DNA of 64,000 bases from contig NZ_CP032485.1 in NCBI RefSeq assembly GCF_006542335.1, forward strand, positions 1,684,501 through 1,748,500. The letters run 5' to 3'. The DNA comes from Neokomagataea tanensis. GTDB lineage: Bacteria > Pseudomonadota > Alphaproteobacteria > Acetobacterales > Acetobacteraceae. The notes below the pieces were generated by a model that did no database searches, was not told the origin of the DNA, and worked only from the letters and a program-made list of their open reading frames with translations. Shown one piece after another: positions 25,181 to 29,626 of the stretch. Position numbers and translations under genes: made by a program. How positions within the stretch are numbered: position 1 is the first letter of the stretch; every line of letters starts with the position of its first letter.

Positions 25181-26164
25181 ATGGCCGCATCTCTTCGCGT
25201 CGCTGTGCAAATGGATCCGCTTGAGCATATTGATATCAACGGAGACTCGACTTTCGCTTTGATGCTTGAGGCGCAAGCGCGTGGGCATAAGCTTTGGGTT
25301 TACCCTGTTACGGAGTTGAGCCTTTCTGAGGGAAACCCGGATGACCCCGTAGGCAGATTAAGGGCACGGGCAAGGCCGGTGGAAGTGCGCCGTAAAAAAG
25401 GGGACCATGCAACATTTGGCGCGGAGGAGGTATTACCCCTTGGTGACACAGATGTTGTGCTGATGCGGCAGGACCCTCCATTCGACATGGGCTATATTAC
25501 AGCCACGCATCTGCTTGAGCATGTGCACGGTGTTGGGGAGGGGCGGTCACTTGTCGTTAATGACCCGGCATCGGTGAGAAATGCTCCCGAGAAGCTGTTA
25601 GTAACGCATTTTCCGCATCTCATGCCGCCGACACTGATTGCGTGGAGCCCGAAAGATATTGAAGCGTTTCGTGCGGTGCATCATGATATTATCGTTAAGC
25701 CGCTGTTCGGGAATGGTGGCGCAGGTATTTTCCGAATCAAGCCAGGTGACGAGAACCTGAAGTCGCTGATGGAAATGCATTTTGCACGCTCTCGCGAACC
25801 CCTAATGATTCAGCGCTATGAGCCTGCTGTTCGTCAGGGTGATAAGCGGATCATTTTGGTGGATGGCATGCCGATTGGTGCTATCAACCGTGTCCCTGCG
25901 GAGGGTGAAGCACGTTCCAACATGCATGTTGGCGGCCGCGCTGTACGCGTGGATTTAACCGAGCGTGACCGTGAAATTTGTGACGCTATCGGCCCTTATC
26001 TGCGCGATAACGGTCTGATTTTCACGGGCATTGATGTCATCGGAAACTGGCTGACGGAAATCAACGTAACGTCCCCGACAGGCTTGCAGGAATTAGACCG
26101 GTTTGATGGGATCAACAGTGCCGGTCTGATCTGGGACGCAATCGAGCGCCGCTTGGGTACCTAA
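25181..26164 (+). CDS. gshB: glutathione synthetase
   Basis: ATP-grasp ligase joining gamma-glutamylcysteine and glycine, the second step of glutathione synthesis. The protein (327 residues) opens with the family's LRVAVQMDPLEHIDINGDSTFALMLEA and carries LMRQDPPFDMGYI, the grasp loop region KPLFGNGGAGIFRI and the C-terminal EINVTSPTGLQEL. Length matches E. coli GshB (316). No gshA is in the window. A glutathione peroxidase gene lies elsewhere in the window (45705-46199). The long upstream gap suggests its own promoter. Confidence 0.96.
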   Translation: MAASLRVAVQMDPLEHIDINGDSTFALMLEAQARGHKLWVYPVTELSLSEGNPDDPVGRLRARARPVEVRRKKGDHATFGAEEVLPLGDTDVVLMRQDPPFDMGYITATHLLEHVHGVGEGRSLVVNDPASVRNAPEKLLVTHFPHLMPPTLIAWSPKDIEAFRAVHHDIIVKPLFGNGGAGIFRIKPGDENLKSLMEMHFARSREPLMIQRYEPAVRQGDKRIILVDGMPIGAINRVPAEGEARSNMHVGGRAVRVDLTERDREICDAIGPYLRDNGLIFTGIDVIGNWLTEINVTSPTGLQELDRFDGINSAGLIWDAIERRLGT

Positions 26165-26176
26165 TTACGGCTGAAG

Positions 26177-26368
26177 CTACTCTTTGGGCGGGGTTATTTC
26201 ATCCCGCTCGAAGGGGTAAGCCTCTTTAAATTCTTCTGCTGTGGGTTTGGGAAGCTTGTCGCGCGTCAACTTGTTGTGAAGCCACGGCTTTAGATCACTT
26301 TTAAAGTAGATATAGTAGATACTAGGCCAGATAACGGCCACAAAACAGATCAGAAAGATGTTCAGCAT
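26177..26368 (-). CDS. small membrane protein of unknown function
   Basis: I do not recognise it. The frame extends far upstream, but the ATG at 26368 follows AGGAG by eleven bases and begins a sensible 63-residue protein. It has one hydrophobic segment at the very N-terminus (MLNIFLICFVAVIWPSIYYI), then a charged tail of about 40 residues ending ERDEITPPKE. The upstream part of the open frame has the composition of non-coding sequence. It is convergent with gshB (12 bases apart) and divergent from the methyltransferase gene. Confidence 0.6.
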   Translation of the reverse strand: MLNIFLICFVAVIWPSIYYIYFKSDLKPWLHNKLTRDKLPKPTAEEFKEAYPFERDEITPPKE

Positions 26369-26544
26369 CGTTACGCTAGCTCCTAATCTGTGGTTTTTTA
26401 CAATAAAATAGAGCTGTAGACAGCCTGTAAGACACACCATGTCTTGCCAGAAGCCCCCTGACAAGGGCAGAAGAGGCCAACGAACCGCCCCCATTGCCTC
26501 TTTGTCAGTCGGACGAAGAGCGGAGACAGAAGGCTTCATCACGT

Positions 26545-27201
26545 ATGTCCTCACCTTCATCACCACGTTCTGCGCTTGACGCTGATGCCGTGAAAGCGGC
26601 GTACCGCCGTTGGGCACGTGTTTATGATACCGTATTTGGCCGTGTTTCAGGCATGGGACGCAAGCGTGCAGTGGCTGAGGTCAATGCACTACCGGGGGAG
26701 CGCGTTCTTGAGGTTGGTGTCGGTACTGGCTTGGCTTTACCGTTCTATAATCAGAACAAACGTATCACCGGTATCGATTTGTCAGAAGATATGCTTGAGC
26801 GCGCCCGTATGCGGGTATTGCAGCAGGGCCTGACAAATATTGATGATCTGGTTGAAATGGATGCAGAAGCAACCCGTTTCGCAGATGATAGCTTTGACAT
26901 TGCAGTTGCAATGTTTGTTGCCTCTGTTGTGCCACACCCTGATCGTTTGCTGAAAGAATTGAAGCGGATTGTCCGTCCGGGTGGGCATATTCTTTTTGTA
27001 AATCACTTTTTAGCGCAGGGCGGTCTGCGGCTGGCCATTGAACGCGGTACAGCTCGTGCATCGCGTTCTTTGGGGTGGAATACGGACTTTGCAATTGAGA
27101 CTTTGCTGCCGCCAGAGGACTTGGCGCGGGCAAGTATTCGTCCTGTGCCGCCTATGGGGTTCTTTACACTCGTGACATTACCGCACGACGGTTCTAAATA
27201 A
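26545..27201 (+). CDS. class I SAM methyltransferase, PmtA-like
   Basis: SAM-dependent methyltransferase with motif I LEVGVGTGLALPFY, motif II region ITGIDLSEDMLERAR, and a long loop ending in LKRIVRPGGHILFVNHF. The whole pattern (AYRRWARVYDTVFG at the N-terminus) resembles alphaproteobacterial phosphatidylethanolamine N-methyltransferase PmtA, which makes phosphatidylcholine. That lipid is abundant in acetic acid bacteria, so the assignment is plausible but not proven; UbiE-like enzymes look similar. I take the ATG at 26545 (MSSPSSPRSAL, 218 residues) rather than the open upstream frame. Confidence 0.82.
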   Translation: MSSPSSPRSALDADAVKAAYRRWARVYDTVFGRVSGMGRKRAVAEVNALPGERVLEVGVGTGLALPFYNQNKRITGIDLSEDMLERARMRVLQQGLTNIDDLVEMDAEATRFADDSFDIAVAMFVASVVPHPDRLLKELKRIVRPGGHILFVNHFLAQGGLRLAIERGTARASRSLGWNTDFAIETLLPPEDLARASIRPVPPMGFFTLVTLPHDGSK

Positions 27202-27333: not shown

Positions 27334-28539
27334 ATGTTGTTTTCGGCTCTTAAATCCCGCCCAGCTTTTTCTGTGCAAAAGCTGGGTATAGCCTACTTAC
27401 TGCTGGCACTTTTCGCTGGGTTGTTGGGTGGAATTCTTGCGCTGCCGGGGGCGGGTTACGCTGCAACACCCGGAATCGCGCTCTGCCATGGCATTTTAAT
27501 GTCCTTCTTCGTCGTAGTGCCTGCTGTGTTGGGTGGGTTCGGGCAGTTTTTGCTCCCGAAAGAGTTAGGATTAGAGAGCACACTCCTGCCGGGGGCATCG
27601 TTCCTTGGTTTTGCGCTGCTGTCTTCGGGCGTGGTCTTTCTACCTGTGTTGCCACTGGTATCATTGCTGTTATGGGCAGCGGGTAGCCTGTGCGTGGCGG
27701 TGGATATTATCGTAACGGCTTTGGAAGGACGTTCAGTCCGGTTCAGCGCGCTTACACCTTTCGTATGGTCTTTGCTTGCTACGGCATGCGGGATTGTCGT
27801 GACATCTCCTGTGCTCGCGGCAATGATCACGCATATGGGTGTTTCAAGCTTAAGCGCTGATGGCGGTTATGCCGTAGAACTGCCTGTGCAGGCTTTGGCA
27901 CGTGTCCTGCAAACGCCTGAAGTTGCGCTAATGTTAGTGCCTGCTCTGGGTCTGATCTGCTGTCTCTTCCCCGCGAGCAAAGGGGCGTTGACGCAGCGTG
28001 TTGCGCCCCATGCTTTTGGTGTGTCGGCGGTCGCGGGTCCATTGTTTTGGACAGATAGCCTCTTTACCCCGCATTCTCTTCTGACGTTGCAGATGATTGC
28101 TTGGGGCACACAGTTGCTTCCAGCTGTTGTCATGCTCGGCGCTCTTGTCAGTGACCTGTGGGCGGCGCGCCGCGCGGTGAGCGACAAGGCTTATTGGGGC
28201 ATCGGTGCGCTGGCGCTCATGACGGCAGGCTGGGGGCCTTCTTTGCTTATTGGTGCTGGTAGCCACCCTGCGGTGGCGTTCGGGAGCATCATGGCGGTTT
28301 GTGGCGGCTTTTATGCGTGGCTGGAAACAACATCAGGCGGTCGTGTCCCGGGTTGGTTGTGCCGCTCCCACGCATTAATGACGATGCTTGGGGCGCTCTG
28401 CTCGCTGGTGCCTTCTTTCGCGTTCTGGGGAGAGGGCATAATGGGGCTCAGCCTTTTAGGGTTCGTGGCTGTTGGCGTTATTCTGCTGGGCCGTGCGATG
28501 CGCCTTCAGTCCCTCAAGCGTTCGGGTGCGGCTTTATGA
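27334..28539 (+). CDS. degenerate haem-copper oxidase subunit I homologue lacking the binuclear centre
   Basis: 401-residue, 12-segment membrane protein clearly descended from cytochrome c oxidase subunit I (about 530 residues). The first low-spin haem ligand is kept at His52 in ALCHGILMSFFVVVPAVLGG, which aligns with TAHGILMMFF. The second is kept at His311 in GAGSHP, aligning with AHFHY. The GHPEVY motif reads QTPEVA (193-198), so the CuB His and the cross-linked Tyr are gone. The HH pair is Thr240-Asp241 in FWTDSLFT. The high-spin haem His is Gly309. It cannot reduce oxygen but might hold one haem. It overlaps cyoE by four bases. No subunit II or III gene adjoins it. Confidence 0.85.
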   Translation: MLFSALKSRPAFSVQKLGIAYLLLALFAGLLGGILALPGAGYAATPGIALCHGILMSFFVVVPAVLGGFGQFLLPKELGLESTLLPGASFLGFALLSSGVVFLPVLPLVSLLLWAAGSLCVAVDIIVTALEGRSVRFSALTPFVWSLLATACGIVVTSPVLAAMITHMGVSSLSADGGYAVELPVQALARVLQTPEVALMLVPALGLICCLFPASKGALTQRVAPHAFGVSAVAGPLFWTDSLFTPHSLLTLQMIAWGTQLLPAVVMLGALVSDLWAARRAVSDKAYWGIGALALMTAGWGPSLLIGAGSHPAVAFGSIMAVCGGFYAWLETTSGGRVPGWLCRSHALMTMLGALCSLVPSFAFWGEGIMGLSLLGFVAVGVILLGRAMRLQSLKRSGAAL

Positions 28540-29501
28540 GCGGAGCATCTGCTTTAGGGGCGCTGCGTGACCGACCCTTCGTCGCTGTTTTAGCGGAACC
28601 CGGTGCGGAGGGGGATTCATCTCTCCGCGAGTGGTTGGCCCTTTTAAAGCCTCGTGTCATTTCGCTGGTTGTCTTCACCGGAGCAGCTGGTATGGCTGTT
28701 GCTCCGAAATGGCCGTCCATTCCGTTGGGCATCATTACAATTCTTTGTATCTGTATCGGAGCGGGTGCGGCCGGCGCGATCAATATGTGGTACGATCGTG
28801 ATATTGATGCCGTGATGCGTCGCACATCGACCCGTCCTATACCTGACGGCCGAATGAGTGCTGATGGTGCTCTGCTCTACGGTGTTGTGCTGTCCGTCAT
28901 ATCCGTCATTATACTGGGGCTGGCAACGAATGTTCTGGCAGCAGGCATTCTGGCTTTTTCGATTTTTTTCTACAGCGTAATCTACACAATGTGGCTTAAG
29001 CGCCGCACGCCTCAAAATATAGTTATTGGGGGGGCGGCAGGTGCCTTCCCTCCGATGATTGGTTGGGCGGCATCCATGAACAGTCTATCTGTTTTGCCGG
29101 TAGCAATGTTTGCCATTGTGTTCTTGTGGACACCGCCGCATTTTTGGTCACTTTCACTCTACGCGTGTAAAGATTATGACGCTGCAGGTGTGCCGATGTT
29201 ACCCGTCGTGAAGGGGGCGAGGCACACGCGTTGGCAGATATTGCTCTATACCTTCATTTTGACGGCGTGTTCTTTGGCACCATCCTTCACGCATGAATGC
29301 GGCTGGTTTTACACGGTCTCGACGGTAATGCTGGATTTGGGTTTCATCGGCTGCGCCATACGCGTTCTTCGTGACCAGCAGGATGAAAAAGGCGTGAGCC
29401 TGACAAAGGACGCGCCAGCGCGCTTTGCCTTCAGGTACTCGCTTGCTTACCTGTTCCTGCTGTTTTGTGGTCTTCTCGTCGATCGGGTTTTATTAGGATG
29501 A
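28536..29501 (+). CDS. cyoE: protoheme IX farnesyltransferase (haem O synthase)
   Basis: Polytopic UbiA-type prenyltransferase that adds farnesyl to haem B, making haem O for bo3-type oxidases. The 322-residue form starting at 28536 (MSGASALGALRD) has the first Asp-rich motif NMWYDRDIDAVMRRT and the second region YACKDYDAAGVPML, plus the RPIPDGRMS loop. The frame is open further upstream but overlaps the preceding gene. The ATG sits in an ATGA overlap with that gene's stop, so translation is probably coupled. The next small gene is coupled the same way. Confidence 0.95.
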   Translation: MSGASALGALRDRPFVAVLAEPGAEGDSSLREWLALLKPRVISLVVFTGAAGMAVAPKWPSIPLGIITILCICIGAGAAGAINMWYDRDIDAVMRRTSTRPIPDGRMSADGALLYGVVLSVISVIILGLATNVLAAGILAFSIFFYSVIYTMWLKRRTPQNIVIGGAAGAFPPMIGWAASMNSLSVLPVAMFAIVFLWTPPHFWSLSLYACKDYDAAGVPMLPVVKGARHTRWQILLYTFILTACSLAPSFTHECGWFYTVSTVMLDLGFIGCAIRVLRDQQDEKGVSLTKDAPARFAFRYSLAYLFLLFCGLLVDRVLLG

Positions 29502-29626
29502 CGCATTTGCAAGAGCAGAAGGACTGCCCCGCCTCGAGGCGTCAAAAGAGCCGGGTCATTGGCTTAATCGGCGGCGTGGTGACCTTGGTTGTCGTGCTGT
29601 ATGTTATTACCTTGATCCGTCTTTAA
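29498..29626 (+). CDS. CoxF-like 42-residue membrane protein
   Basis: A 42-codon frame starts in an ATGA overlap with the cyoE stop. It has a charged N-terminus ending in a Lys/Arg patch (SRRQKSRV), then a single membrane segment (GLIGGVVTLVVVLYVITLIRL) and stops. The RN/KSR-then-membrane-helix pattern ending in VxTLxRL matches the small CoxF protein that follows ctaB in many alphaproteobacterial aa3 oxidase operons. Its coupling to cyoE and the terminator right after it support a real gene. Its function in that family is not well defined. Confidence 0.7.
   Translation: MTHLQEQKDCPASRRQKSRVIGLIGGVVTLVVVLYVITLIRL

Follow-up and report, generated by a model that had tools for sequence, protein, structure and literature searches.

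The window analysed here, a stretch of 64,000 nucleotides from Neokomagataea tanensis (contig NZ_CP032485.1), contains a gene whose product is a shortened CtaD, i.e., subunit I of an A-type haem-copper oxidase. It is followed by the haem O synthase gene ctaB and by a small open reading frame (Table 1). The genes at 25181-27201, ahead of this group, encode a glutathione synthetase and a methyltransferase, and the same gene order is found in Komagataeibacter xylinus (L067, 1-4463). None of the neighbouring genes examined in the window encodes a subunit II or III, as an earlier note on this DNA had stated, and the translational coupling to haem O synthase that it described is seen as an ATGA overlap. 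The 42-aa frame gave no family match at E < 0.02. A motif scan, which missed the window's own copy, detected a similar small frame after ctaB in 27/41 loci with a shortened gene (one of them doubtful) and in 7/12 loci with a true CtaD. The small frame, ctaD and ctaB together are the residue of an old COX operon.

Table 1. Genes and conserved codons of the pseudo-oxidase locus (window positions).
Feature	Position	Strand	Remarks
CtaD-derived pseudo-oxidase	27334..28539	+	401 aa, 12 predicted membrane helices
His52 codon	27487..27489	+	Helix II; aligned with low-spin haem ligand of CtaD; invariant in 110/110 distinct homologues
Trp114 codon	27673..27675	+	Remnant-specific Trp; 106/110 remnants
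Trp145 codon	27766..27768	+	One of four invariant columns, 110/110
Trp239 codon	28048..28050	+	Trp of the WAHH motif of true CtaD; invariant in 110/110 (four such columns in all)
His311 codon	28264..28266	+	Start of helix X (TM10); other low-spin haem ligand; invariant in 109/109, one further row cut by contig end
ctaB/cyoE, haem O synthase	28536..29501	+	337.3 bits against the NCBIfam model of haem O synthase (cut-off 246); ATGA overlap with pseudo-oxidase
42-aa single-helix ORF	29498..29626	+	Start in ATGA overlap with ctaB end

Descent and distribution of the pseudo-oxidase

The pseudo-oxidase is about 130 residues shorter than CtaD. A Pfam scan of the window protein returned COX1 alone, above the cut-off, and COX1 was also found with E < 0.001 in 34/41 members of the remnant set A5. 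The curated CtaD model, in contrast, did not accept the window protein (43.2 vs. 670.75 bits). According to a structure model and fold comparison, both the window protein and a second member are predicted to adopt the 12-helix subunit I fold, which bears out the earlier reading as a subunit I with 12 segments. In a tree, all 46 remnants included were split from 10 true CtaD and CyoB by a fully supported branch, in keeping with a single origin; several branches are long and the inner order is unsure. By sequence kinship, fold kinship and the tree, the pseudo-oxidase belongs by descent to the haem-copper oxidase superfamily. It resembles CtaD of the aa3 cytochrome c oxidases (Paracoccus 1ar1, Rhodobacter 2gsm) in sequence, in the 12-helix fold, in the low-spin His pair and in its site before ctaB, but it lacks the a3 His, the CuB His, the Tyr, the K-channel Lys and the Arg pair. 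CyoB, the subunit I of bo3 quinol oxidase, differs in being complete, and its gene is a separate one in every one of the 43 carriers.

When 200 genomes of the family were searched with the window protein, 42 had a short CtaD-like frame free of internal stops, one of which (G009) is cut by a contig end; those of the remaining matches that were inspected were true CtaD. A 43rd carrier, G056, has a divergent frame upstream of ctaB with both His present, which the protein search missed. The gene is found in 47/49 species of a genus that is probably Acetobacter (g31), one copy being interrupted, and in 19/19 of a genus that is probably Komagataeibacter (g60). The protein searches, each scoring no more than 8000 candidates, reached mainly near relatives, a single-protein scan of genome contigs found no relative, and a scan with ctaB returned mostly other Alphaproteobacteria, with the K. 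xylinus locus as the one useful hit. In databases the family is labelled ‘cbb3-type cytochrome c oxidase subunit I’, ‘heme-copper oxidase family protein’ or ‘hypothetical protein’. Also present in the protein collection is P0003, a 238-aa form of the window protein whose start lies at an internal Met (residue 164); this short form is either a gene-calling choice or comes from a truncated strain.

Active-site residues and selection

Residues were assigned by alignment with 10 true CtaD from the same family, the Acetobacteraceae. The homologue alignment held 119 rows, 110 of them distinct and 9 duplicates; the frame of L018 was trimmed at the N-terminus, and from the 30 loci of the probable Komagataeibacter genus L177-L195 were used, the other 11 being other oxidases. 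Pairwise identity among the 110 homologues has a median of 28% and a minimum of 16%. Only 4/387 well-filled columns are invariant (His52, Trp145, Trp239 and His311), and both His were also invariant in each of three remnant-only alignments (29, 41 and 27 sequences). The proposal that the low-spin haem ligands His52 and His311 had been kept is thus upheld by the comparison with true CtaD and with the homologues, and neither residue shows the free variation that would mark a decaying relic. As a control, we followed the 15 His columns that are invariant in true CtaD. Only the two low-spin ligands are fully kept in the remnants, while the next best of the other 13 columns is kept in 78/109 and the rest in at most 39/110 of the filled rows. 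The probability by chance that both ligands fall among the 5 columns surviving out of 227 (the start Met is one of the five) is 0.0004, a figure that ignores shared descent; the 110 homologues share descent, and the counts are therefore not independent draws.

The binuclear centre presents a different picture. Gly309 takes the place of the a3 ligand in the window protein, as the earlier note had read it. A His stands there in 1/109 homologues; it was considered as a kept a3 ligand in this sequence (L010) and is read as chance because its sister L009 lacks it. At the CuB site the His of GHPEV has become Thr and the cross-linked Tyr has become Ala, in agreement with the change from GHPEVY to QTPEVA noted before; the HH pair, taken there as Thr-Asp, was one residue off and aligns with Asp241-Ser242. 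Among the homologues the CuB His (H276) and the Tyr are each retained in 0/110 and the second His of the HH pair in 3/110, and the two His of the pair never occur together (0/110). The first His of the pair, however, is kept in 39/110, so the claim that the whole binuclear centre was lost is exact for the window protein but too broad for the family. The K-channel Lys is gone from the window protein. The Arg-Arg pair, which lies near the haem propionates in CtaD, is retained in 0/110 homologues and the loop holding it is deleted, and the segment from the conserved helix IX Trp to the helix X His has shrunk from 38 residues in true CtaD to a median of 23 in the remnants. An Arg is found in 7/110 homologues at the position of the CtaD Arg that binds the formyl group of haem a. 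The state of the a3 His, the CuB His and the Tyr, together with the model score and the neighbouring genes, would rule out an active A-type subunit I. At the position of Trp114 the 10 true CtaD have Ala (9) or Ser (1), and as far as the alignment goes this Trp is a constraint newly arisen after loss of the oxidase.

Selection was estimated as dN/dS (Nei-Gojobori) in 21 within-genus pairs, 12 of which had dS < 1. In these 12 unsaturated pairs the ratio was always below 1, as the earlier note had expected of a maintained gene, with 0.08-0.23 in 11 of them and 0.64 in one (L036/L037). The values for ctaB in the same pairs were 0.01-0.14, and 0.29 for L036/L037. The pseudo-oxidase accordingly diverges faster than ctaB yet stands under clear constraint; for the window gene itself we infer this constraint, since its dS against relatives is saturated. 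Internal stops are absent from 42/42 carriers of the 200-genome search, from 46/47 in the probable Acetobacter genus and from 19/19 in the probable Komagataeibacter genus, so the frequent stop codons that would mark decay are not seen. A pseudogene was rejected on the open frames, the dN/dS ratios and the ligand invariance, all of which agree with the earlier argument that retention of just the two ligands of one haem is not expected from a dead gene. The sole interrupted copy seen (G225, contig C146, L222), which was left out of the alignment, has its frame in pieces in a genome with ctaB and an oxidase; the interruption may be an error, as the assembly is 86% complete.

Linkage to ctaB and co-occurrence with oxidases

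The position next to the haem O synthase gene extends to the homologues, as the earlier note had anticipated: ctaB lies directly downstream on the same strand in 42/43 loci (41/42 and L055), the remaining locus, L040, running off its contig, and the two genes overlap by 4 bases in at least 24/41 loci. True CtaD of relatives is also found beside ctaB (L049, L060 and others). As the ctaD-ctaB linkage is ancestral, adjacency alone proves little, and the notable point is its survival after the enzyme was gone. In G001 (L064) ctaB comes immediately after the methyltransferase gene.

A separate full-length oxidase subunit I is present in 43/43 carriers. Four genomes without the gene (G029, G116, G066 and G070) have only weak haem O synthase matches and no bo3-type subunit I; a subunit I match of 139-145 bits was found in three of them and none in the fourth. 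Likewise, two small genomes of the probable Acetobacter genus (G236 and G237) lack both the gene and a subunit I match and have weak ctaB matches. The gene is thus absent from six genomes that have neither a bo3-type subunit I nor a true ctaB, and this joint loss speaks for a part in haem O and bo3 assembly. In G001, G053 and G077, ctaB and an oxidase are present but no pseudo-oxidase was found by the protein search or in the ∼1.5 kb upstream of ctaB, a search that could overlook a copy lying elsewhere if it has diverged as strongly as that of G056. Since these three genomes keep ctaB and an oxidase without a copy, the gene would not be indispensable.

A CtaA match was found in 21/43 carriers and none in 22/43, including the genome of the window. 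The bound haem is therefore probably B or O, and haem A as the cofactor was judged unlikely on this ground and on the rarity of the formyl-binding Arg. Several of the carriers with CtaA (G042, G174, G073, G060 and others) have an extra subunit I of ∼550-620 aa, with matches above 460 bits, besides the bo3-sized one, and therefore another oxidase was kept or regained there. SURF1 was detected in 0/42 carriers (G009 being outside the test set), nor was it found in G001, G053 or G077. It is present in 30/30 relatives taken as true-CtaD carriers, with a weak and broken match in G045; these relatives were classed by GHPEV and HH motifs (10), by reading the sequence (1, L060), by full-length Pfam matches (5) or by frame length alone (14). 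The absence of SURF1 may be a simple loss along with COX.

A possible role in haem delivery

The gene and its neighbourhood are already known in print. In Acetobacter pasteurianus, ctaB (APT_01774) and ctaD (APT_01775) are listed as neighbours in PMC5158111. The ‘deranged COX1-like protein’ of Acetobacter, which sits beside ctaB and belongs to the same gene family, is described as lacking any cofactor-binding residues (Degli Esposti et al., 2023, citing Matsutani, 2014; PMC10715153). Unlike this description, the 45 newly aligned rows from the probable Acetobacter genus all retain the two low-spin ligands. In our literature search, most of which extended to less than the full text of the papers, neither the kept ligand pair nor its constraint was seen to be reported, and the main text of an RNA-seq paper (PMC5756330) mentions neither ctaB, cyoE nor haem.

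The best overall explanation, in which we place about even trust from sequence comparisons, is that a former CtaD was kept as a single bis-His haem protein that acts with CtaB for the bo3 oxidase. Its CtaD ancestor would have lost oxygen reduction in an ancestor of the acetic acid bacteria and survived in the membrane as a haem binder with a single bis-His site, in which His52 and His311 would hold one haem that is most likely B or O. Since hardly anything of the catalytic machinery except the ligands of one haem was kept by selection, a haem with two His ligands is the likely cofactor, and judged by these residues it is quite probable that the protein binds haem. That it acts in the CtaB/bo3 pathway is also probable, though less firmly so; the tie of the gene to ctaB and bo3 suggests a handling of haem O for bo3 assembly. 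CtaB would then be the partner: the pseudo-oxidase would hold newly made haem O, or present haem B, and pass the haem on to the bo3 subunit I in these organisms, where SURF1 was not found. We consider the chances that it works in this way between CtaB and CyoB, as a haem carrier or holder, to be evenly balanced. Such a carrier fits better than a fixed redox centre because the shortened segment before helix X and the deletion of the Arg-pair loop would open the propionate side, given the roles of both in CtaD. The proposed working principle is like that of SURF1, for which a His-bound haem has been suggested to be held for insertion into subunit I (PMC9145763). The sequence and architecture of the pseudo-oxidase are different, and the Pfam scan found no SURF1 domain in it.

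A protein that keeps these ligands could also serve in other ways. The low-spin haem of the oxidases is the haem through which electrons enter, and with its ligands invariant the remnant might be an electron-transfer cytochrome that passes electrons, e.g., those of quinol, on to CtaB, CtaA or a different partner in the membrane. We regard this as unlikely, since the gene occurs with or without CtaA, its link is with ctaB and not with a dehydrogenase, and the Arg pair near the propionates has been deleted. It is slightly less doubtful that the protein is a haem-free scaffold that does no more than stabilise membrane-bound CtaB, a role proposed for the Acetobacter protein in PMC10715153. The fixed linkage and the translational overlap with ctaB would suit a scaffold well enough, yet it leaves unexplained why, with mean conservation low, the only invariant positions among 15 conserved His are the two that ligate one haem.

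Translational coupling to ctaB would also fit a haem-sensing regulator, in which occupancy of the site tunes the activity or stability of CtaB. This draws on the same evidence as the carrier, but no regulatory domain was found in the Pfam scan and we think it improbable. The least credible reading is a decaying COX relic, kept by chance or only for the translation of ctaB: the lost catalytic residues, the divergence faster than that of ctaB, the interrupted copy in G225 and the three genomes in which no copy was found would all fit, but uninterrupted frames in nearly all carriers, dN/dS far below 1 in 11 of the 12 unsaturated pairs, the invariance of both ligands and the newly fixed Trp114 speak strongly against it.

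Returning to the haem carrier, a wider proposal is that the remnants form a new functional class derived from the haem-copper oxidase fold, namely a single-haem, bis-His pseudo-oxidase that replaced SURF1 and took on the delivery of haem from CtaB to bo3 upon the loss of COX in acetic acid bacteria. We put this forward tentatively, at somewhat less than even chances. The route of haem into subunit I of the haem-copper oxidases is described as not known in PMC9145763, and a conserved protein with one haem site, tied to haem O synthase, is a tractable test system for haem delivery in bacteria that are harmless and can be grown in the laboratory. The alignment corrects the printed statement that the Acetobacter protein lacks all cofactor ligands, and the database annotation of the family would be mended. 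The family is also an example of an enzyme whose constraint fell nearly everywhere but at one cofactor site. If the proposed role is true, a retired enzyme would have turned into an assembly factor of its own replacement.
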